Below, one piece after another: positions 1,350 to 37,025 of a stretch of DNA of 64,000 nt. A program made the position numbers and the translations under genes. Under the pieces are notes generated by a model. That model did no database searches. It saw only the letters and a program-made list of their open reading frames with translations, and had not been told where the DNA came from. This stretch comes from Novosphingobium sp. KA1 (GTDB lineage Bacteria > Pseudomonadota > Alphaproteobacteria > Sphingomonadales > Sphingomonadaceae), in the NCBI RefSeq assembly GCF_017309955.1, contig NZ_CP021247.1, positions 1 through 64,000 of the forward strand, written 5' to 3'. How positions within the stretch are numbered: the stretch's first letter is position 1; every line of letters starts with the position of its first letter.

Positions 1350-1351
1350 AT
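1298..1351 (+). promoter_or_regulatory. Promoter with nested inverted repeats for the toxin-antitoxin pair
   Basis: TTGACA (1315-1320) and TATAAA (1337-1342), 16 bp apart, form a good sigma-70 promoter. Two dyads bracket it: ATATTGTCA (1298-1306) with TGACAATAT (1343-1351), and TGACAC (1316-1321) with GTGTCA (1329-1334). The outer right arm runs into the toxin start codon at 1350, so transcripts have a very short or no leader. The layout suggests autoregulation by the downstream helix-turn-helix antitoxin, as is usual for type II modules. Confidence 0.7.
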
Positions 1352-1640
1352 GGAAACGCAGCAGACTCCGCTCTTCGCGAACTGGTTTAACGGCCTTAGG
1401 GACCGCAAGGCACAGTCGAAGATCGCGGGTCGCATCGCCCGAATTGAACTCGGGCTAATGGGTGATGTGAAGTCGGTTGGTGATGGCGTTTCCGAGGTGC
1501 GTATCGATTTCGGTCCCGGCTACCGCCTCTATTTCACCCGCCGGGGCGAGCAATTGATTATTCTGCTGATGGGTGGCGACAAGTCTAGCCAGCAGCGGGA
1601 TATCGCAAAGGCCAAGGAACTGGCCGCTCAGATACCGTGA
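1350..1640 (+). CDS. HI1419-type (Gp49-like) RelE/ParE-superfamily toxin
   Basis: The 96-residue protein matches the addiction-module killer family (PF05973, HI1419 type): ANWFNGLRDRKAQSKIAGRIARIELG, then EVRIDFGPGYRLYFTRR and a C-terminal ILLMGGDKSSQQRDIAKAKELA. Members of this superfamily are mostly ribosome-dependent mRNA endonucleases. The start at 1350 gives the family's usual length. The antitoxin gene follows 35 bases downstream with its own Shine-Dalgarno, the standard toxin-first order of this subfamily. Confidence 0.85.
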   Translation: METQQTPLFANWFNGLRDRKAQSKIAGRIARIELGLMGDVKSVGDGVSEVRIDFGPGYRLYFTRRGEQLIILLMGGDKSSQQRDIAKAKELAAQIP

Positions 1641-1675
1641 GCGGCCGCAGATGGGACAAGCCAGGAGGCAGTACC

Positions 1676-1963
1676 ATGTCTATTGAACTCACCCGCTTTG
1701 ATGCGGCCGAATATCTTTCTGAGCCCGAAGATCAGGCAGAACTGCTCGCAGATGCGCTCGAAACCGGCGATGCCCACATCGTGGCAAAGGCGATCGGCAT
1801 CGTTGCCCGCGCCCACGGGATGACGGAATTGGCAAAAGAAACCGGCATCAAGCGCCAACAGCTGTACCGGACGCTGGGCCCTGACGGGAACCCGACGCTG
1901 GAAACCATGCTGAAGGTACTGCCGGCGCTTGGCCTGAAGATTCGGTTCGAAGCGGCCGCCTAA
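1676..1963 (+). CDS. HI1420-type helix-turn-helix antitoxin
   Basis: The 95-residue protein is a putative addiction-module antidote (HI1420 type). It has an acidic N-terminus (FDAAEYLSEPEDQAELLADALE) and a C-terminal helix-turn-helix MTELAKETGIKRQQLYRTLG...NPTLETMLKVLPALGLK. It should neutralise the toxin encoded just upstream and repress their shared promoter. A strong AGGAGG at 1663-1668 sits 7 bases before the ATG, supporting the start and higher translation than the toxin. Confidence 0.85.
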   Translation: MSIELTRFDAAEYLSEPEDQAELLADALETGDAHIVAKAIGIVARAHGMTELAKETGIKRQQLYRTLGPDGNPTLETMLKVLPALGLKIRFEAAA

Positions 1964-2728: not shown

Positions 2729-3841
2729 ATGAAAACAGGCGATCAATTCGCCGGCGACCAGCTGCGTCTTGCGCGGCTGGCGCACGGATTCACCCTCGAA
2801 GAACTCGGCTTAAAGGTCGGGATGACTCGGCAATACCTTCACCAGCTCGAAACCGGGGTCAAACTAGGCACAAGTGCCAACGTCGAGCTGCTAGCCGACG
2901 TTTTGGGCGTTACGCCATACTTCTTCTTTCAAAGTGCTAAACTGCCTGTGCAACCGGAGCAATGTCATTTCCGCAAACAGGCCACCACGCCCGTATCCAT
3001 TACCAGCCAGGTGCTTGCGCGTGGGACACTGCTGGATCAGTTGGTGGAGCGGCTCGATAGCGCGTTGAAATTACCCCCAGTCAATTTCCCTCAGCATGCA
3101 ATTGAAACTGCCGAAGACATTGAATTTGCCGCAGAAGAGTGCCGGAAACACTGGAATCTTGGTCTCTCAGGTCCGATCACCAACATGATGCGGGTGGTTG
3201 AGAATGCGGGAGCTATCGTTGGTTATTTTGATGGCATCTCTGAGCGCGTCGACGCTTTGTCCATGGACCGGCGGCGCCCACTCATCATTCGAAGCGAGGC
3301 AAAGCCTGCCGCCTGCCGCCTTCGCTTTGATCTAGCGCATGAATGCGGGCATTTAGTCATGCATCGCGGCGTGCATACGGGTTGCCGAGAAACTGAAGGT
3401 CAGGCGCACCGCTTCGCTGGCGCATTTCTGCTTCCGCGCTCTGCTTTCGCACGTGAATTCCCTCGAAGTCGGAACCTAGATTGGTCAGCGATTTTTGCCC
3501 TGAAGGCCCGCTGGAAAGTGTCAGCTAGAGCCATAATTCGTCGTGCTTACGATCTTGGGCTAATAACCGCTGACAAATATCGAACAGGCAATATCCATCT
3601 CAACAAGACGGGACAGAGCAAGGTTGAGGCACTCGACAACGAGATTGTCGCCGAACAACCCGAACTTCTCGACACGATTTTCCGAACGCTTGAGCGCGGA
3701 GGATCGATTGCTCTACGTGAGATCGCAAATGGTGCTGGCATTTCAGACGGAATGTTCGAAGTGCTGGTTGGTCGTCGCCTTCCATTTGCGCAGATCGCAG
3801 ATGCAGGAAATGTCGTGCGCCTATTCAGCGGTATCAGCTAG
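2729..3841 (+). CDS. XRE regulator fused to ImmA/IrrE metallopeptidase
   Basis: 370 residues. The N-terminal helix-turn-helix (about 10-65: LRLARLAHGFTLEELGLKVGMTRQYLHQLE) is followed by an ImmA/IrrE zinc-peptidase domain with the HExxH-type motif HECGH and a downstream EGQAHRFAGAFLLP. ImmA-like enzymes cleave phage or mobile-element repressors. Fusions to XRE domains occur in stress-response and toxin-antitoxin-like loci. A C-terminal extension of about 80 residues is unassigned. The stop overlaps the convergent portal gene by 8 bases, so this cargo is packed tightly against the virion genes. Confidence 0.85.
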   Translation: MKTGDQFAGDQLRLARLAHGFTLEELGLKVGMTRQYLHQLETGVKLGTSANVELLADVLGVTPYFFFQSAKLPVQPEQCHFRKQATTPVSITSQVLARGTLLDQLVERLDSALKLPPVNFPQHAIETAEDIEFAAEECRKHWNLGLSGPITNMMRVVENAGAIVGYFDGISERVDALSMDRRRPLIIRSEAKPAACRLRFDLAHECGHLVMHRGVHTGCRETEGQAHRFAGAFLLPRSAFAREFPRSRNLDWSAIFALKARWKVSARAIIRRAYDLGLITADKYRTGNIHLNKTGQSKVEALDNEIVAEQPELLDTIFRTLERGGSIALREIANGAGISDGMFEVLVGRRLPFAQIADAGNVVRLFSGIS

Positions 3842-4901
3842 GGACTATCTTCACCCGCTCCCTAAACCGCACCGCCTCGACGCCCAGCATATCGTTGAGT
3901 TCGAGGAACACGGATTGCAGCGGCTCGATCTCCAGCTCGAAGAAGGCATCGGTGGCCTTGGTGACGTCGCCAAAGCCGCCGGCGTTGGCCGGCACGATGC
4001 CGAGCAGCTGCGGCGGTACGCGGTGCGCGGCCAGTACGTCGTCGCGCGTCGTGTTCTTGATGCCGAGGAACTCGTCCTTGGCGCCGGCCTCGGCGATCGG
4101 CAGCAGTCGGATCGAGTTTTCCTTGCCGTCCGGGGCGTGGATGAAGAGGTTGCGGAAGTTGCCCGGCCCCTTCGACTTCTTCAGCGCCTGCCGGATCGCC
4201 TCCACGTCACCATCCGCGAACTGCCCGGTCGCATGCAGGATGTACCCCGCGTGGCTCCCGTTCTCGTAATAGCGGCGGCGGAACAGCGTGGCGTTCTCGT
4301 TCAGCAGGGCTGACTGCAACGCGGAGAGGTACTCAGGCAGTCCGTAGATCTCCTGGTTGACGTCGGGCGCCATCAGCTGATGCACGCTGCCCGGCTCGAA
4401 CTCGCTTTCGTTCTGGAAGCCGGGCACCCACCAGAAACGGCCCGGCTCCACGCCGCGTCGCACGTACTTCGCAAGGCAGTGATCGATGCGCAGCACACCG
4501 CCCAGGCGGTTGCGGACCTGCTGGACATAGGCGTTGCCCATCACGAGGTAGTCCTGCACCAGCCCGGCAAAGGCCTTGCGGCTCAGACGCGATGCGGGAT
4601 CGAGGCTGGCCGCCAGCATGTTGCGCTTCAGGATGATCGCGCTCGAATGGTGCGGCGAGGCGCGATAGGCCCGCGCCAGCCCGTCCAGCGGGATCGGCGG
4701 CTCATACCAGCGCGAATTGTGCCAGCATTCGAGCATGTCCAGCATCGTGGCCCGGCTCAGCACCGGTTCGGGATCCCCGAAGGTGAACGCCTCCACCGCG
4801 CCACCGCCCTCTCCCGCCGGCACGATCGCGCCCTTGGAGGCTGCGGCCGATTCCTGACGGCTCATTGCCCGCACATTCTGGCGGCGCGTACGCTTGCTCA
4901 T
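3834..4901 (-). CDS. Q: Phage portal protein (P2 gpQ family)
   Basis: This 355-residue protein is the dodecameric connector through which DNA enters and leaves the capsid. Family signals are YEPPIPLDGLARAYRASPHHSSAIILKRN, LVMGNAYVQ and YGLPEYLSALQSALLNENATLFRRRYYENGSHAGYIL; P2 Q is 344 residues. The start ATG at 4901 overlaps the terminase stop as ATGA, so translation is probably coupled. As in P2, Q and P read leftward, away from the O-N-M-L capsid operon. Confidence 0.95.
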   Translation of the reverse strand: MSKRTRRQNVRAMSRQESAAASKGAIVPAGEGGGAVEAFTFGDPEPVLSRATMLDMLECWHNSRWYEPPIPLDGLARAYRASPHHSSAIILKRNMLAASLDPASRLSRKAFAGLVQDYLVMGNAYVQQVRNRLGGVLRIDHCLAKYVRRGVEPGRFWWVPGFQNESEFEPGSVHQLMAPDVNQEIYGLPEYLSALQSALLNENATLFRRRYYENGSHAGYILHATGQFADGDVEAIRQALKKSKGPGNFRNLFIHAPDGKENSIRLLPIAEAGAKDEFLGIKNTTRDDVLAAHRVPPQLLGIVPANAGGFGDVTKATDAFFELEIEPLQSVFLELNDMLGVEAVRFRERVKIVPS

Positions 4902-6760
4902 TCGATGATCTCCATCGTGCTCCTGGGCTTTTCCTTGCCGTCGAGCGGTTCGTTCATGAGGATGTGCATGGTTGCCCACGCAAGGTCGGCGTGGCCGTCG
5001 TCACCGCCGCGCCCGGCCTTGAAGGTGACGTTGCGGCCGCTGGTGGTCAGCGTCTTCTTGATCGAGACGAAGGCCGAGACGATATCGAGATAGCCGACGT
5101 CGAACAGCAGACGCCCGCGCCGGATCACGTTCTGCGCCTTCATGATCATCTGCGCCTTGAGTTCGAGCGAATACTCGATCTTGGCGACTGCGCAGCCGGG
5201 CATGGCGCCGGGCTTCGCCAGCAACTGGTAAACGCCGGCGCCCACGCCGGTCGCGTCGATGCCCAGATAAGTGCAGTTGTACCGGCTGAGCATCGCCTTG
5301 ATGAATTCGGCCTGCTGCTCGAAGTCGAGACCGCGCAGCGGGTGCCGCTCAAGGATACGGAACTGCCCGCCTTCCATCAGCGGCGGCGCGGCGATGACCA
5401 GCGCGGCATTGTCGCCGTTCTCGCTTTCCTGCGGATCGTAGCCCGCCCAGACCGCGCGATTGCCATAGGGTCGCGCCGCTTCGATGTTGAAGTCGGTCCA
5501 GTCGACAAGGCTGTCGGCACCGCAGGCGATCATATCGTTGAAGCGGAAGGCCGACTGGCTGTCGTCCACGAAGTCGCACATGAACAGGTTCGCGAATTCG
5601 TCGGGCGCGTACTCGTCCCTCAGTTCGTCGATGTCGAACAGGTCGCAGCCGCCGGCCTCGGCGTCGAGGATGTTGACGATGTGCCGCCAGATCCGGTCAG
5701 GGCCGACGCTGCCCGCCGCAAGCGCGGCATGGCTGACGTCGATCGAGACGCGCTCTTCCTTCTTCCGGCGCCGGTTGCGGCGCTCGCCGGTCCAGTAGGG
5801 ATAGGCCGGATGGGCAACGCTCGATGGCGTCGAGAAGTAGGTTTTGCGCCACTTCTTGTGCGTCGCCATGCCCGAGGCGACCTTGTTCAGTTCCTCGAAC
5901 GAATGGACCCAGAAGAATTCGTCGAAATAGAAATTGCCGTGGCGGCCCTGCGCCGTGCGGAAGTTGGTGCCGAGGAAATGGAGTTCGGCCGCCGCCTCTT
6001 CCTCCGGCCGCAAGTCCGAGGTGATCAGCATCGGATCACCGCCCAGCGTCACGCCCACCAGCTTGGCGAAGCTGACGATGTAGCTGCGGAACTGGTGCGC
6101 CTGGGCTTTCGATGCCGACAGGAAGATCTGGTTACGGCCGGTCTCGATCGCGTCGATCAGGGCTTCGAAGGCGAAGTAGTAGGTCGCGCCGATCTGGCGT
6201 GACTTCAGGATCATGCGGGTGCGCTGGCTCAGCGCGTTCCACCAGGTCAGCTGGTAGTCGTAGAGGCCCTCAAGGAAGATGCGCTTGAGTTCGGCCGCCT
6301 GCTCGGCGGTGAAGTGGTTCTTTTTCGGCTTCTTGCGCGCGCCCGCGTTCCGGTTGCCGACCTTCTCGTTAAGGTCACCGCTATGGCCGCCCGGCTGCTC
6401 ATAGCGGCGCACGCGGGCAAGGCTTTCGATCTGGCGCGCCAGCGCGTCCATCTCGACCAGGTCCGCGCTGGTTTTCTTCTCCTTTGCGATCAGGGTCAGC
6501 AGGCGGATTTCCAGCCCGTCCTCGATCTTGCTGATCGAGGGGGCATCGTCCCACCGGTCGCGCTGCTTCCACGATTCAATCGTGGCGCGCGGGAGCGCCT
6601 TGCCATTGTCGCTCGCAACGCCGTGCAGCGCGAATTCCGCCGCGATCTGGCTCACGCCCCACCCGCGCCAGTAGAGGCTGCGCGCATGTCGGCGGGGATC
6701 GAATTTCCACGCTGCGGTCAGGCCGCCGGGTTCAGGTTGGTAGGGCATGGCGGCGACCAT
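4898..6760 (-). CDS. P: Terminase large (ATPase) subunit (P2 gpP family)
   Basis: About 620 residues; the packaging motor and nuclease subunit. A small N-terminal helix-turn-helix (YWRGWGVSQIAAEFAL) is followed by a Walker A-like SRQIGAT at about residue 187 and a Walker B FYFDEFFW at about 278. The C-terminal nuclease half carries WAGYDPQ and YLGIDATGVG acidic positions. ATG at 6760, ATG at 6748 and an upstream TTG at 6769 (behind GGGGGG) are all possible starts. The gene diverges from the capsid operon across a dyad at 6792-6819. Confidence 0.95.
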   Translation of the reverse strand: MVAAMPYQPEPGGLTAAWKFDPRRHARSLYWRGWGVSQIAAEFALHGVASDNGKALPRATIESWKQRDRWDDAPSISKIEDGLEIRLLTLIAKEKKTSADLVEMDALARQIESLARVRRYEQPGGHSGDLNEKVGNRNAGARKKPKKNHFTAEQAAELKRIFLEGLYDYQLTWWNALSQRTRMILKSRQIGATYYFAFEALIDAIETGRNQIFLSASKAQAHQFRSYIVSFAKLVGVTLGGDPMLITSDLRPEEEAAAELHFLGTNFRTAQGRHGNFYFDEFFWVHSFEELNKVASGMATHKKWRKTYFSTPSSVAHPAYPYWTGERRNRRRKKEERVSIDVSHAALAAGSVGPDRIWRHIVNILDAEAGGCDLFDIDELRDEYAPDEFANLFMCDFVDDSQSAFRFNDMIACGADSLVDWTDFNIEAARPYGNRAVWAGYDPQESENGDNAALVIAAPPLMEGGQFRILERHPLRGLDFEQQAEFIKAMLSRYNCTYLGIDATGVGAGVYQLLAKPGAMPGCAVAKIEYSLELKAQMIMKAQNVIRRGRLLFDVGYLDIVSAFVSIKKTLTTSGRNVTFKAGRGGDDGHADLAWATMHILMNEPLDGKEKPRSTMEIIE

Positions 6761-6791
6761 GGCCCGCAATTTGCCCCCCGATCACCGCCAT

Positions 6792-6819
6792 CCATTTGGC
6801 TGGCCGCCCGGCCAAATGC
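6792..6819. promoter_or_regulatory. Late-operon activator dyad, copy 1 (P/O divergent region)
   Basis: The arms CATTTGGC (6793-6800) and GCCAAATG (6811-6818) are perfectly complementary, embedded in a 28-bp element also present at 15056-15083 and 23382-23409. It lies between the leftward terminase and the rightward scaffold gene, so one site could serve both. The inner GG/CC steps are 12 bp apart, the spacing of the TGT-N12-ACA site of P2 Ogr. An Ogr-family gene lies at 34070-34375. Confidence 0.7.
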
Positions 6820-6910
6820 TGCCCCTTGAGACAAGGCGCCAGACCCGCCCTTTTGGTCCCGTCAAAGCCCCCGCCTCGCTGCCGAGCAACTCAGGGAACC
6901 GGAACCGAAC

Positions 6911-7759
6911 ATGGCAAAGAGCAAGTTTTTCCGCGTCTTCGTCGAAGGCTTCACCGCCAGCGATGGCCGCAAGATCGAAGCCGCCTGGATCGACGACATT
7001 GTCGCGACGTTCAGCGCGGCCACTTACACCCCGCGCATCAACTGCGAACACATCAAGGGCTTCAGCCCCGAGCCGCCGTTCAATGCCTATGGCAGCGTCA
7101 GCGCCGTAAAGGCCCAGACCGATGAACTGGTGATCGACGGCGAAACCGTGCGCCGCCGCGCCCTCTACGCCCAGATCGAGCCCAACGAACAGCTGCTCAG
7201 GATCAACAAGCAGGGCCAGAAGATCTTCACCTCGGTCGAGATCTCGCCCGACTTCGGCGGTACCGGCAAAGTCGGCCTGATCGGCCTTGCCGTGACGGAC
7301 AACCCCGCCTCGCTCGGCACCGAAGCGCTGTCGTTCTCCGCGCTCAAGCCGATGTTCGACGCGCGCAAGCAGCACCCCGACAACCTGTTCTCGGCCGCGA
7401 TCGAAGCCGCGATCGTCATGGAGCCTTCCGGCACGGACAGTGCCGGCGTTGCCGATGCGATCCGCTCGGGCTTCGCCAGCCTTGCCACGATGTTCGGCCG
7501 GGGCGACACGGAAAAGCCCAAGGAAGAACCCAAGCCGAAGCCCGCCAATGACAATGGCTTCGACATTGCCGCCTTCAGCACCGCGCTGGGGGAACAGGTC
7601 GCGCTGGCCGTCAAGCCGGCCAACGACGCCATTGCCGCGCTTCAGGCGGATTTCGCCAGCCTCAAGGGCCAGCTGGAAACCACGGAACAGCCGCAGGACT
7701 TCACGCGCGCCCCGGCCACCGGCGGCGGCGGCAATGCCGCGTTCCTGACCGACTGCTGA
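6911..7759 (+). CDS. O: Capsid scaffolding protein / maturation protease (P2 gpO)
   Basis: This 282-residue protein directs capsid assembly and cleaves capsid, scaffold and portal precursors. The putative serine-protease triad Asp18, His47 and Ser108 aligns with Asp19, His48 and Ser107 of P2 O. The C-terminal third is the helical scaffold (FDIAAFSTALGEQVALAVKPANDAIAALQADFASLKGQLE), preceded by a charged linker KPKEEPKPKPAND. It is the first gene of the capsid operon. Confidence 0.93.
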   Translation: MAKSKFFRVFVEGFTASDGRKIEAAWIDDIVATFSAATYTPRINCEHIKGFSPEPPFNAYGSVSAVKAQTDELVIDGETVRRRALYAQIEPNEQLLRINKQGQKIFTSVEISPDFGGTGKVGLIGLAVTDNPASLGTEALSFSALKPMFDARKQHPDNLFSAAIEAAIVMEPSGTDSAGVADAIRSGFASLATMFGRGDTEKPKEEPKPKPANDNGFDIAAFSTALGEQVALAVKPANDAIAALQADFASLKGQLETTEQPQDFTRAPATGGGGNAAFLTDC

Positions 7760-7822
7760 TCGGCCGCCCCCCTCCCCCGCGCCCCCTCCCCGCACGCCCG
7801 CCTTTCACCGGAGTACCTTCGC

Positions 7823-14103: not shown

Positions 14104-14895
14104 TTATGGTGCGAGCCAATCCCTATCAGGGCGAGCAAGTTGCCGTGCGTTATTATATGCCATATCCAATGTAAGGCAGGTCGCAGCGCGATAAAAATCG
14201 GAATATCGTTCCACCACTAACGCGAGGTCTGCACGCGCGGGATCCGTCAGAGCGAGTGGAACAAGAAGCTGTACTTGGCCTTGGTAGTACTGGGGAATGG
14301 CTGTCTTATAGTTCCTTCGGGCTCTTTGCCATGCAGAATCTTTCGCGCCGCTCACTAGATTTTGCAATCCGAATGGTGGCATTGATTTGAGAGCATCAGG
14401 AAAGCGATCCACGTTGTCGGCTACTACATGCTCAACATTCATTCTGAGTTCTTTTCGGGTATCTAATACCAGAACTGAAGGATCGTCAAAATAATGAGCC
14501 ATATCCGGCAGAGAAGGAAATTTATTGAGATCCCATTCTCCGCGCCGTGCCCACTTTGAGAAATGCCAATAAGAGTCGATTTCAGGTATCTTATTGCGAA
14601 CAAGTAACATGTAAATCGGTTCTTGCGTGGGGGTTATGAGGCCTGTGTTCCAGCAGCAGAAATTTTCGTCTGCACTGACAGAAACTTTTTTCTCTTCTGC
14701 AATTCGTTGGTAGGTGTGGAGTACGTAGTTTTTGAGAATAGGCTTTGCTTGAGTGGAAGCAGTGTGCCGATACTCCCAATCTTCATTTTCAGCAAGATTT
14801 GCTAATGCCTCAATGTGTTCATTGAGTTTTGGCATCATAGCAAAATCCGAAAATTTTTCGGGCAGATCATATGGCTGGTACTTGGCCAACTTCAC
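14104..14895 (-). CDS. DUF3825-domain protein, prophage cargo
   Basis: 263 residues, opposite in direction to the late genes and clearly poorer in GC. The C-terminal two thirds match DUF3825: CWNTGLITPTQEPIYMLL, LPDMAHYFDDPSVLVLDT, VEHVVADNVDRFPDAL and RRNYKTAIPQYYQGQVQLLVPLAL. The biochemical function is not established. Its place between two late operons is where P2-like phages carry lysogenic-conversion and anti-phage genes, so a defence role is plausible but inferred. Confidence 0.75.
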   Translation of the reverse strand: MKLAKYQPYDLPEKFSDFAMMPKLNEHIEALANLAENEDWEYRHTASTQAKPILKNYVLHTYQRIAEEKKVSVSADENFCCWNTGLITPTQEPIYMLLVRNKIPEIDSYWHFSKWARRGEWDLNKFPSLPDMAHYFDDPSVLVLDTRKELRMNVEHVVADNVDRFPDALKSMPPFGLQNLVSGAKDSAWQRARRNYKTAIPQYYQGQVQLLVPLALTDPARADLALVVERYSDFYRAATCLTLDMAYNNARQLARPDRDWLAP

Positions 14896-21013: not shown

Positions 21014-21832
21014 ATGTCTACCCCTTTTGTTCTCACTCGCCCCGTTTCTCCCCCGGCCGGTTACATCGGCGGAAAACGCAACCTTTCCAAGCGCATCTGC
21101 GCCATCATCGATCGCACGCCGCACAGCAGCTATGCCGAGCCTTTCGTGGGCATGGGCGGCATCTTCCTGCGCCGCACGCGGCGGCCCAAGGCAGAGGCGA
21201 TCAACGATATCTCGGGCGACGTGGTGGGCCTGTTCCGCTGCCTTGCCGAACACTACCCCTACCTTGTCGACATGCTCCGCTTCCGCGTTTCAAGCCGGGC
21301 CGAGTTCGAGCGGCTGCTGGGGCAGGATCCCGATCGCCTGACCGACCTGCAACGTGCCGTGCGCTTCCTCTACGTCCAGCGCCTGGCATTCGGCGGCAAG
21401 GTTTCCGGCCGTGCATTCGGCGTGGACGCATCGAACCCTGCCCGCTTCGATGTCAGCAAGATCGAACCCATGCTGGCCGATATCCATGACCGCCTGCAGT
21501 CGGTCACGATCGAGCGCCTGCCCTATGGCGATTTCATCCGCCGCTATGACCGCGAGGGCGCGCTGTTCTACCTCGATCCGCCCTATTGGGCCTGCGAAAA
21601 GGACTACGGCCCCGACGTCTTCACCCGCGCCGACTTCGCCGCGCTGGCCGACCAGCTGGCCGGCATCAAGGGCAAGTTCCTCATGTCGCTCAACGACAAT
21701 GAAGGCGTGCGCGAGACGTTTGGCCGATTCATGATCATGCCGATCGATACGACCTACTCGGTGGGGGCGAAGTCCCGCCCGGCGCGGGAGGTACTGATCA
21801 GCAACTTCCCGCTGGCTGACAATGACGACTAG
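21014..21832 (+). CDS. DNA adenine methylase (D12/Dam family)
   Basis: 272 residues with the N6-adenine methyltransferase motifs in alpha order: YIGGKRNL at the N-terminus, AdoMet-binding FVGMGG (about residue 44) and catalytic DPPYW (about 194). No restriction enzyme gene is adjacent, so it is an orphan methylase. It probably protects phage DNA from host restriction or modifies regulatory sites. The target sequence cannot be told from the protein. It closes the fibre operon and is followed by a strong terminator. Confidence 0.9.
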   Translation: MSTPFVLTRPVSPPAGYIGGKRNLSKRICAIIDRTPHSSYAEPFVGMGGIFLRRTRRPKAEAINDISGDVVGLFRCLAEHYPYLVDMLRFRVSSRAEFERLLGQDPDRLTDLQRAVRFLYVQRLAFGGKVSGRAFGVDASNPARFDVSKIEPMLADIHDRLQSVTIERLPYGDFIRRYDREGALFYLDPPYWACEKDYGPDVFTRADFAALADQLAGIKGKFLMSLNDNEGVRETFGRFMIMPIDTTYSVGAKSRPAREVLISNFPLADNDD

Positions 21833-21842
21833 ACGATAAAAA

Positions 21843-21872
21843 AATCCGCGCCTCACATATGGGGCGCGGATT
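21843..21872. terminator. Bidirectional terminator between methylase and TAC cassette
   Basis: AATCCGCGCC (21843-21852) and GGCGCGGATT (21863-21872) form a perfect 10-bp stem with a 10-base loop. An A-run lies on the left and a T-rich stretch on the right, so it can end the rightward methylase operon and the leftward cassette at 21907-23251. Confidence 0.8.
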
Positions 21873-21906
21873 ATTCTTTAGCGATATTTGCTAGGTATAA
21901 TTTGCG

Positions 21907-22407
21907 TCAATTCACCTTAGCGGGCGCATTCTTCTGAATGTGCGCCGTCGAAGCAATCGCCGGCAGCGGAGGGACGCGCAATCCCGCTTCAGCAAAAACA
22001 TGAGCCGCGAGCCCTCTGAAATAAGGATATGCAGCGAACTTTCCGACGTTCCTGCAAAAACCAAGCGCTGCGGCCTCCGTCGCGTCGTTGGGAACGGTAT
22101 AAGAAACACCATATTCCGCAACGAGACTAAAGGCCTTCTTACGAGCGCGCTTGCCATCTACATGGTATTGAAAAATTGCGACAACCGCAGAATCTTCGCG
22201 CATATATTGGCAAGCAACGATCTTACGGCTGTAATTCAACTTCAACTTATCGTTGCCATTGCCCGCATCCGGCTCAGCAATAAATTTGCTAGACAAGAGC
22301 CTGATTGTTTCGAGCTCAGAATTTTTTGCAACGTGATTATATTCATCCCCGGAGAAGCCCTCCTTAGGAATTTCCTTTGCAACTTCGTTAGTGATATCGC
22401 TCATCAC
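21907..22407 (-). CDS. SecB-like chaperone of a toxin-antitoxin-chaperone module
   Basis: 166 residues. The second half, FSLVAEYGVSYTVPNDAT...FCRNVGKFAAYPYFRGLAAHVFAEAGLRVPPLPAI, matches the SecB fold pattern (strand-rich core, PY-R helix, then a Pro/Leu tail). Such SecB-like proteins protect antitoxins in TAC systems such as mycobacterial HigBA-SecB. It is last in a three-gene leftward operon, overlapping the antitoxin gene by 4 bases. The similarity is moderate and recognised by pattern only. Confidence 0.65.
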   Translation of the reverse strand: MMSDITNEVAKEIPKEGFSGDEYNHVAKNSELETIRLLSSKFIAEPDAGNGNDKLKLNYSRKIVACQYMREDSAVVAIFQYHVDGKRARKKAFSLVAEYGVSYTVPNDATEAAALGFCRNVGKFAAYPYFRGLAAHVFAEAGLRVPPLPAIASTAHIQKNAPAKVN

Positions 22408-22820
22408 GCAGCCTTTCGCCGCAGTCCAGCCAACCGCTGGTCACTGGAATTCACACACTCAGCCTCGCTATCGTCGCCAGCCTCCTGCCAGATCGGGAAG
22501 ACGTTCGGCGCTGCTTCGATCAAGTTCGCCATCTCATCTACCTGATCTTGCTCACACTTCCGAGCAAAGTGCTGACAATTCAACGTGGGAGTTTCCCCCA
22601 ACGCATGAACCGCCCGAGCAAACAGGCGCAACGTGAAATTCTTGCATTCATCGCTGAAAACTTGGGAAATGCGCGCACGCGAGACACCCATCGCGTTGGC
22701 CAAGTCAGCGCGCGTAAAACCCTTCTCCTCCATCAGGGAGTGAAGGAAGAGCTGTGCATCAACAACGAACGCTTCTTCAGCGAAAATCGCGTTCCGTTCC
22801 CGATCATTGGTGCTGCTCAT
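22404..22820 (-). CDS. XRE-family antitoxin with C-terminal extension (TAC module)
   Basis: 138 residues. The helix-turn-helix at about 28-62 reads LMEEKGFTRADLANAMGVSRARISQVF. A C-terminal tail of about 60 residues (VDEMANLIEAAPNVFPIWQEAGDDSEAECVNSS) follows. In TAC systems an extension of this kind makes the antitoxin depend on its chaperone. Both neighbours overlap it by 4 bases (ATGA), so the three proteins are translationally coupled. Confidence 0.75.
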   Translation of the reverse strand: MSSTNDRERNAIFAEEAFVVDAQLFLHSLMEEKGFTRADLANAMGVSRARISQVFSDECKNFTLRLFARAVHALGETPTLNCQHFARKCEQDQVDEMANLIEAAPNVFPIWQEAGDDSEAECVNSSDQRLAGLRRKAA

Positions 22821-23251
22821 TGTCCTTTTCCTTTCGCGTTGGCGTTCAAATTGGATTGCAATTCGTCTGCAATCTCCAACGCCCGGCCGAGCACGATGGG
22901 ATCGGCCTTGTCTTGTTTCTTGTCTAAGTCTGCTTTTACAACCACGAAGGTCCGGATACCGTCCACTTCGGTGGGGAATCCGTAAAACCTGTGCTTAAAG
23001 CCCTTAAACGCCTGCAGCATAACATTGTTAATTTTCGACCTGCCCTCATTGTAATTAAACATTTTAGGCATCAACTTCCTGCCCGCACACCATCCCTTCA
23101 TAATACCTACGAAGCGACCCTGTTCCTTGACCTGAAGCGATTCAAAATCTTTGAGCGGGGACTTAATCGCGACAACACGCGATCCTCCTTCTTCGGCCAA
23201 CAGGCTACATCCGAGTTTAGTAAACTGCTCTTCGCCGTTGCCGTCCGTCAT
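22817..23251 (-). CDS. Putative RelE/HigB-like toxin of the TAC module
   Basis: About 144 residues. The C-terminal half (GRKLMPKMFNYNEGRSKI, HRFYGFPTEVDGIRTFVVVK, LDKKQDKADPIVLGRALEIA) follows the RelE/HigB layout: a YRI-like strand, a hydrophobic strand, then a KK motif and a closing helix. The N-terminal 55 residues are extra and unassigned. ATG 23251 is preferred over an upstream in-frame GTG at 23281. First position in the operon agrees with toxin-antitoxin-chaperone order. The toxin assignment is the least certain of the three. Confidence 0.55.
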   Translation of the reverse strand: MTDGNGEEQFTKLGCSLLAEEGGSRVVAIKSPLKDFESLQVKEQGRFVGIMKGWCAGRKLMPKMFNYNEGRSKINNVMLQAFKGFKHRFYGFPTEVDGIRTFVVVKADLDKKQDKADPIVLGRALEIADELQSNLNANAKGKGQ

Positions 23252-23381
23252 ACTTGGTTGAGTTAAGGTTTCTCTTAACACCGCGCAAGAGGGATTCCGA
23301 TATATGGTTGCCTATCGCAGCTGGGATGGAAAAATCTCCAGCGCTTTCCATGATTGCGCACAAATCAGCCTTCGAGTGGCA

Positions 23382-23409
23382 TCATTTGGCCTGCCGCCCA
23401 TACAAATGC
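23382..23409 (+). promoter_or_regulatory. Late-operon activator dyad, copy 3 (before V)
   Basis: Third copy of the 28-bp element: TCATTTGG (23382-23389), the same 12-bp spacer as copy 2, and ACAAATGC (23402-23409). The centre is about 55 bases before the V start codon at 23451, similar to its distance before J. It drives the V-to-D operon and lies in the divergent region facing the TAC cassette. Confidence 0.7.
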
Positions 23410-23450
23410 AGCCCCGCGAAACCCGCTGAACCTCTTGCCATGGTCGCACC

Positions 23451-24008
23451 ATGGCGAATTCCGCAGACCTTGAACGCCGATCGGGCGAACTCCTTCAGGA
23501 CGGTGTCGTGGCCTCCGTGGACTACGCGGCCGCGACCTGCACCGTGGAACTGGGCGACCTTGTCACCGGCGACCTGCCGTGGTTCGCCCCGCGCGCCGGC
23601 GGCGTCACCGTCTGGTCGCCGCCTGTGCCCGGCGAGCAATGCACGGTCCTGTGCCCCGAAGGCGATATCGACAATGGCCGCGTGCTGCTCGGCCTCTGGT
23701 CCGATGCGAACCCGCCGCCCTCCACCGATCCTGACCTTGTCCTGATCGCGTTCCCCGATGGGGCCAGCGTGGGCTACCACCACGGCACCCATGCGCTTGC
23801 CGCCAGCCTGCCCGCCGGCGGCTCGGCCACCGTGGACGCACCGGCCGGGCTCACCATCAACGCCGATGTCACGATCAACGGCAACGTCTCGATCGCGGGC
23901 AAGGCCGAAGCATCTGACGACGTGGTCAGCGGCGGCATCAGCCTCAAGAGGCACAAGCATTCGGCCGTTGCCGCCGGCACCGCGCAGAGCGGAGCGCCCG
24001 TGCCATGA
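23451..24008 (+). CDS. V: Baseplate spike protein V (P2 gpV)
   Basis: 185 residues; the membrane-piercing central spike. An N-terminal OB-like domain (VASVDYAAATCTVELGDLVTGDLPWFAPRAGG) is followed by beta-helix-like repeats (LTINADVTINGNVSI). The tip RHKHSAVAAG preserves the HxH motif that binds iron in P2 V. It is the first gene of the second tail operon; the ATG lies about 42 bases after the copy 3 dyad. Confidence 0.93.
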   Translation: MANSADLERRSGELLQDGVVASVDYAAATCTVELGDLVTGDLPWFAPRAGGVTVWSPPVPGEQCTVLCPEGDIDNGRVLLGLWSDANPPPSTDPDLVLIAFPDGASVGYHHGTHALAASLPAGGSATVDAPAGLTINADVTINGNVSIAGKAEASDDVVSGGISLKRHKHSAVAAGTAQSGAPVP

Positions 24009-36948: not shown

Positions 36949-36992
36949 TGGTAGCGGAGGAGGGACTCGAACCCCCGACACGCGGATTATGA
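36949..36992. other. Likely prophage attachment site (attR) in tRNA 3' half
   Basis: The tyrosine integrase ends just beside the 3' end of this tRNA, and phages of this class recombine within tRNA 3' ends. The exact core is unknown because the matching copy (attL) was not seen in positions 1-3834 and presumably lies beyond the left edge. Confidence 0.45.
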
Positions 36993-37025
36993 TTCCGCTG
37001 CTCTAACCAGCTGAGCTACTCCGCC
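36949..37025 (-). tRNA. tRNA-Met (CAT), elongator type
   Basis: A complete 77-base cloverleaf with encoded CCA: acceptor GGCGGAG pairing with CTCCGCT-type end, D-arm GCTCAGCTGGTTAGAGC, anticodon stem GCGGA/TCCGC with loop ATCATAA (anticodon CAT), and a T-arm containing GGTTCGAGTCC. GC at the acceptor start and no initiator-specific features favour elongator Met; a lysidine-modified Ile-2 tRNA cannot be excluded. It remains intact after prophage insertion. Confidence 0.93.

Follow-up and report, generated by a model that had tools for sequence, protein, structure and literature searches.

What do three small genes, read against the phage genes on both sides of them, do for the P2-like prophage that carries them? 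The question arises in Novosphingobium sp. KA1, where we analysed a window of 64,000 nt, i.e. the whole stretch from position 1 to 64,000 on the forward strand of NZ_CP021247.1 (assembly GCF_017309955.1). Three leftward open reading frames (ORFs), each sharing a 4-base overlap with its neighbour, are present there as originally predicted, and they almost certainly form a toxin-antitoxin-chaperone (TAC) module. The TAC itself is a known kind of system; the module in the window is a new, sequence-divergent example. It is quite likely that this type II TAC operon is a cargo of the prophage and acts as a chaperone-gated abortive-infection module, and its main role is probably anti-phage. The parts of the operon are:

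22817-23251, minus strand: toxin, a RelE/HigB1-fold protein of 144 aa with an ATG start; K83, R88, Y90, G91, K111 and K112 are invariant
22404-22820, minus strand: antitoxin, an XRE helix-turn-helix protein of 138 aa with a C-terminal extension
22407-22508, minus strand: putative chaperone-addiction (ChAD) tail, antitoxin residues ~105-138, around NVFPIW and DQRLAGL, placed by conservation
21907-22407, minus strand: SecB-like TAC chaperone with AYPYFR and PPLPAI motifs, starting from GTG at 22407 (166 aa) or ATG at 22404 (165 aa)
23262-23279, no strand assigned: operator-like palindrome GTTAAG-AGAAAC-CTTAAC, lying inside the promoter-like pair
23261-23289, minus strand: promoter-like pair of the operon, CTTGCG - 17 bp - TTAACT
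21838-21872, both strands: intrinsic terminator usable both ways, between a Dam-like methylase gene and the chaperone gene

Support for a single functional unit comes from gene order. At E<=1e-3, and counting the window's own proteins, we found 10 relatives of the toxin, 112 of the antitoxin and 118 of the chaperone, and the toxin-antitoxin-chaperone order is complete in 21 of the 24 loci that hold a chaperone relative (window included; L006 was left out as a duplicate of L021). As relatives exist for all three ORFs and their order is kept, these are not chance reading frames; the loci can be regarded as separate because no two of their chaperones exceed 81% identity. The incomplete loci have a divergent ORF in the toxin position (L022), a fragment (L008) or a pseudogene (L024), and in L003 the toxin frame departs near the C-terminus. 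Such broken relatives might suggest that the module in the window is likewise a decayed or silent remnant, but here each frame runs its full length, the toxin has all its invariant residues, and both palindrome and terminator are intact, which makes a remnant very unlikely.

The third gene was originally proposed to encode a SecB-like chaperone, to be checked by profile and by structure. The structural half of this check bore the proposal out, as the predicted structure has the SecB fold and its closest structural match is a TAC chaperone, whereas the profile half did not: the window protein gave no match to Pfam PF02556 (SecB), and 8 of 36 members of its alignment appeared at E<=1, the best at 0.0018, short of the cut-off (in the SecB comparison set, 3 of 30 loci were left out, as no ORF was picked in them). 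With the single sequence, phmmer against the PDB gave Rv1957, the chaperone of the Mycobacterium tuberculosis HigB1-HigA1-Rv1957 TAC, at E 0.48, and a match of the chaperone profile to a spike protein at 0.016 was taken as chance. The possibility that this gene is the housekeeping SecB was ruled out, since the genome has a separate canonical SecB copy; a SecB search of the same genome lists the canonical protein and not the window chaperone.

For the toxin, the predicted structure shows the features of the RelE/HigB fold, namely two N-terminal helices, a four-stranded antiparallel sheet and a C-terminal helix. It thus bears out the earlier assignment to RelE/HigB-like toxins with a KK motif; K111 and K112, together with K83 and R88, are invariant in 27 of 27 aligned rows, and K115 is found in 21 of them (three of 30 rows had been dropped as a duplicate, a fragment and a sequence departing from frame). 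These basic residues were set beside the catalytic R68, R77, K95 and K99 of HigB1 on the basis of strand order and spacing rather than superposition. An N-terminal region of about 55 residues had been described as additional to HigB, and we considered it as a new domain; both ideas fall, as structural matches to HigB1 begin at residue 20-21. An alternative GTG start at 23281 would extend the protein to 154 aa. The window toxin did not match Pfam PF05973 (Gp49, HigB-like), and one of ten alignment members did so at E 0.11, below the cut-off; phmmer with the single sequence gave chance matches only in the PDB, and a match of the toxin profile to a herpesvirus glycoprotein at 0.074 was likewise taken as chance. 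Judging from the predicted fold, the toxin would be a HigB1/RelE-type endonuclease that cuts mRNA on the ribosome.

The antitoxin is recognized by Pfam (HTH_31 at 2.5e-6 and HTH_3 at 2e-5, both over their cut-offs), and the long C-terminal tail attributed to it is indeed there. Among the 112 aligned relatives, W111 is kept in 94%, D127 in 87%, N106 in 70%, V107 in 64% and R129 in 62%, so that the tail follows the pattern N-V-x-P-h-W ... D-x-R. In HigA1, the ChAD core is EVPTWHRLSSYRG, with contacts at W108, R110 and Y114 (PMC6377645). The likeness of the two tails suggests a shared kind of signal rather than proven homology, and we regard the tail as a putative chaperone-addiction region to which the SecB-like chaperone may bind.

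One could still imagine an ordinary two-gene HigBA pair that happens to lie beside an unrelated SecB-fold gene serving phage morphogenesis or protein export. The chaperone gene does lie among phage late genes, and its sequence match to known families is weak. Nonetheless, the three genes occur together in most of the loci and in different settings, they are transcribed opposite to the late genes from a promoter-like pair and up to a terminator of their own, the antitoxin tail is conserved at W111, and it is a TAC chaperone that the third protein resembles most in structure. This arrangement is therefore most improbable, and the TAC interpretation, with which the original prediction began, is supported by gene order and by both folds.

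The signals flanking the operon are consistent with independent expression. Of 19 upstream regions, 15 have a GTTAAG-N6-CTTAAC palindrome with at least 10 of 12 matches ahead of the toxin gene, a level attained by about 0.6% of mononucleotide shuffles, and in 10 of the 19 it lies within CTTGNN-N17-TTAAY, a pair seen in 0.13% of shuffles; since shuffling preserves nothing beyond base composition and the loci are relatives of one another, these numbers overstate independence. The 19 regions come from the 21 complete loci, without L010 and L014, whose toxin ORF starts at the locus end. In the window the palindrome stands 28 bases ahead of the toxin start and is the single such site in 64 kb. Autorepression of the operon by the antitoxin, presumably bound at this conserved site, is the simplest reading. 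At the other end, the computed folding energy of 21830-21880 on the leftward strand is -20.7 kcal/mol, compared with a shuffle mean of -8.9 (z -5.0); this stretch ends in a T-run, and the same hairpin was found in the plus-strand scan. The terminator claimed earlier is thus borne out on paper. Opposite strand, promoter-like pair and terminator together rule out that the cassette is part of the late operon. The G+C content of the three genes is 0.49-0.55, and that of the window 0.64.

How might such a module work? The XRE antitoxin would bind the toxin and also repress the operon from the palindrome ahead of the toxin gene, while the SecB-like chaperone, presumably a tetramer, would bind the chaperone-addiction tail of the antitoxin. 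Abundant unfolded late proteins of a rival phage might then occupy the chaperone, or the chaperone might run short, and the antitoxin would be degraded; the toxin would thereby be freed, translation would stop and the infection would abort. The gain for the prophage would be a host protected from rival phages. This chain of events is modelled on CmdTAC and other TACs: in CmdTAC a capsid protein occupies the chaperone, so that the antitoxin is released and degraded (PMC11618068). More generally, we infer toxicity, neutralisation, chaperone dependence, trigger and defence by analogy with CmdTAC and the general ChAD model.

CmdTAC (PD-T4-9) and MqsRAC of E. coli share the TAC layout with a SecB-like chaperone, and defence was shown for those systems; their toxins, an mRNA ADP-ribosyltransferase and MqsR, respectively, are not of the HigB type, and the comparison is by description only. 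The HigBA TAC of Geobacter lovleyi is of the HigB type, with chaperone dependence shown there (PMC5105189), and is likened to ours by description only as well. As for HigB1-HigA1-Rv1957, the window toxin and chaperone are 13% and 18% identical to their counterparts in structural alignments. The window module differs from it in having no equivalent of the chaperone residue D27, an otherwise different antitoxin tail and about 20 extra N-terminal toxin residues, and in residing on a prophage with the palindrome next to the toxin gene; the promoter next to higB in M. tuberculosis escapes regulation by HigA, and repression acts on one located further upstream (PMC3912914).

Whether defence is indeed the purpose depends largely on the place where the operon sits:

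21014-21832, plus strand: left border, Dam-like DNA methyltransferase of the prophage (phrog_56, 1.2e-72)
21833-23382, no strand assigned: exchangeable cargo interval of ~1.55 kb, which in related phages holds other DNA or almost nothing, as seen in alignments to L091 and to phages with an empty site
23451-24008, plus strand: right border, baseplate spike/assembly gpV-like gene of the prophage (phrog_9992, 1.6e-29)

The surrounding P2-like prophage also encodes scaffold, major head, tape-measure and further tail proteins, an integrase and a portal protein. An earlier description placed the cassette backwards between two late tail operons; its orientation opposite to the flanking plus-strand phage genes is correct, but the left neighbour is a methylase that follows the tail-fibre genes, so the wording was loose. 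Related phage loci were the best 80 of 100 from a tail-sheath scan of viral contigs. Of these, 74 have gpV, and the site was counted in the 32 with a full methylase match upstream of it (42 left out: 39 with no methylase, at a contig end or absent, and three with a fragment only); the counts refer to contigs, not independent phages. The site is nearly empty in 8 of the 32, where methylase and gpV are 86-131 bp apart, and the other 24 have inserts, with a distance of 477-1924 bp. L091 has a sheath protein that is 98% identical and flanks with 93% and 96% DNA identity to those of the window, but different DNA at the site; the break in identity sets the cargo limits at about 21833-23382.

The cargo of these phages includes 43 ORFs of 60 aa or longer. 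Ten of the proteins, picked by eye, a choice that biases the defence share upwards, were scanned, and six had PADLOC matches at E<1e-8 (RmrA, retron reverse transcriptase VI, PD-T7-4, AbiTii, PDC-S59 and a TIR model). The other four comprise one HEPN domain, one MauJ-like protein, one weak Csx1-like match and one protein with no match. Several inserts (e.g. L091, L113, L119) hold short ORFs only, perhaps not genes. It is because related phages carry other anti-virus genes at the same site that defence is the probable role. On the other hand, toxin-antitoxin modules on mobile elements are classically addictive, and this TAC might mainly kill cells that lose the prophage, with no part in anti-phage defence; a second, two-gene HigB-like module near the left end of the window (1350-1963) would fit that idea. 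Yet an integrated prophage presumably needs little stabilisation, recognised defence genes use the same site in related phages, and the TAC is rare there, so we consider addiction as the main role unlikely.

In P2, fun lies between G and FI. P2-like prophages of E. coli have two variable sites for defence cargo, replicase-portal and fun (PMC9519451), and Rousset et al. added two in other prophages (PMC9122126). The site here belongs to a different phage group and is bounded by a Dam-like methylase and gpV; it is set apart from the E. coli P2 hotspots by description, and in the available parts of these two sources no defence site is described as lying between methylase and gpV. Among the matches listed from the open-licence literature, we found neither a Dam-gpV hotspot nor a sphingomonad TAC.

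We propose, tentatively and at somewhat short of an even chance, a sequence-divergent HigB-type TAC family, with toxin and chaperone missed by the profile libraries tried, as exchangeable anti-phage cargo at a Dam-gpV hotspot of sphingomonad-type P2-like phages; its chaperone would sense the unfolded late proteins of incoming phages and be blind to those encoded beside it by its own prophage.

A number of results weigh against the interpretation as an anti-phage TAC or against parts of it. The toxin has no match in Pfam, PADLOC, NCBIfam or PHROGs; Foldseek alone gave it none below E 1e-3 (best 0.04), and hhalign against 15 Gp49/HigB relatives (three of 18 loci left out, no ORF picked) was weak, with E 0.033 over 33 columns, too weak for catalytic residues to be mapped that way. 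The chaperone has no match in Pfam, PADLOC or NCBIfam, and in PHROGs reached only families of unknown function at E 0.093 or worse. D27 of Rv1957, which binds W108 of the ChAD, is not conserved (the aligned column is mostly G/A/E/K, with T33 in the window), and the counterpart of R29 is kept only sometimes, with R in 16 of 116 chaperones (two of 118, shorter than 140 aa, left out); the tail may therefore be bound differently, or the tryptophan parallel may be loose. Of the 19 loci, 4 have a poor palindrome or none and 9 a poor promoter-like pair or none, and a generic sigma-70 promoter scan did not report the pair of the window. Of the 80 related phages, a single one (L106, same contig as L009) has the TAC near the site, and there the methylase is gone. 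Finally, proteins of the window phage matched 3 of the 24 context loci only (L009, L014, L015) and relatives lie near housekeeping genes in L033 and L035, so the TAC is not tied to phages.

In L106, gpV lies to the right of the TAC, oriented as in the window; to the left another ORF ends, followed by a stretch that elsewhere lies just before the methylase (L107, 99% over 122 bases), so the TAC occupies the place held elsewhere by methylase plus cargo. In L106 1-723 this pre-methylase spacer runs straight into the TAC, and the methylase itself may belong to the variable stretch.

The TAC family is rare and scattered among genomes of the order and class. Counting the own genome, the chaperone occurs in 9 of 396 genomes of the order and the toxin in 6, all among these 9, and the chaperone is found in 3 of 385 genomes of the class. 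Relatives adjoin integrases in L010, L011 and L012, follow a terminase in L013, and lie near a tail fibre in L014 and near a tail protein and endolysin in L015. Three Sphingobium plasmids carry distant chaperones (29-34%), and a tblastn search of 50,697 phage records turned up no toxin and no chaperone.

To the TACs described so far, the operon adds one of the HigB type whose toxin and chaperone both go unmatched in Pfam, NCBIfam and PADLOC, and it places such a TAC at a site of recognised defence genes in related phages. The trigger of HigB-type TACs becomes directly testable with close prophages that differ at the site (e.g. L091). The Dam-gpV interval also offers a list of further defence candidates, as only 10 of the 43 insert ORFs were scanned.

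Other observations concern the site itself. An XRE gene with a type-VI-like retron reverse transcriptase occupies it in L130 (1374-2610), and L129 (5714-7015) and L150 (5656-6945) share, in opposite orientations, a cargo protein of ~430 residues, a defence candidate for which the L129 copy gave no Pfam or PADLOC match. Between methylase and gpV, empty sites (L094, L107, L125, L128, L143) contain a hairpin-like inverted repeat around CTGCATTT...AAATGCAG, and a decayed copy of it is kept in the window right of the cargo, at ~23383-23420.

Elsewhere in the window, searches of the PDB with the reverse ORFs 4898-6769 and 6782-7795 gave no match, and no repeat of at least 18 bases from the tRNA-Met gene (36949-37025) turned up in the rest of the window that could define the ends of the prophage. 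The two-gene module at 1350-1963 (plus strand) consists of a Gp49/HigB-like toxin (PF05973, 27.8 bits, over the cut-off, match 1401-1619) and a small helix-turn-helix antitoxin-like ORF (1637-1963). A reversed ORF of the unknown phage family phrog_11623 (14104-14895, minus strand) among rightward genes marks a possible second cargo site. At 2729-3841 (plus strand), an XRE and metallopeptidase-like (ImmA/IrrE-type) protein shares 32% identity with the RmrA-like cargo of L121 over 298 residues; the partner ORFs of the two do not match. The gene is directly beside the portal gene (PF04860 match 3915-4577, minus strand), like the portal-side cargo of E. coli P2 hotspot 1. A second portal gene with the same score as that of the window (49.8 bits) lies in the same genome at G000:C1:2060758-2061444 and possibly belongs to another P2-like prophage.
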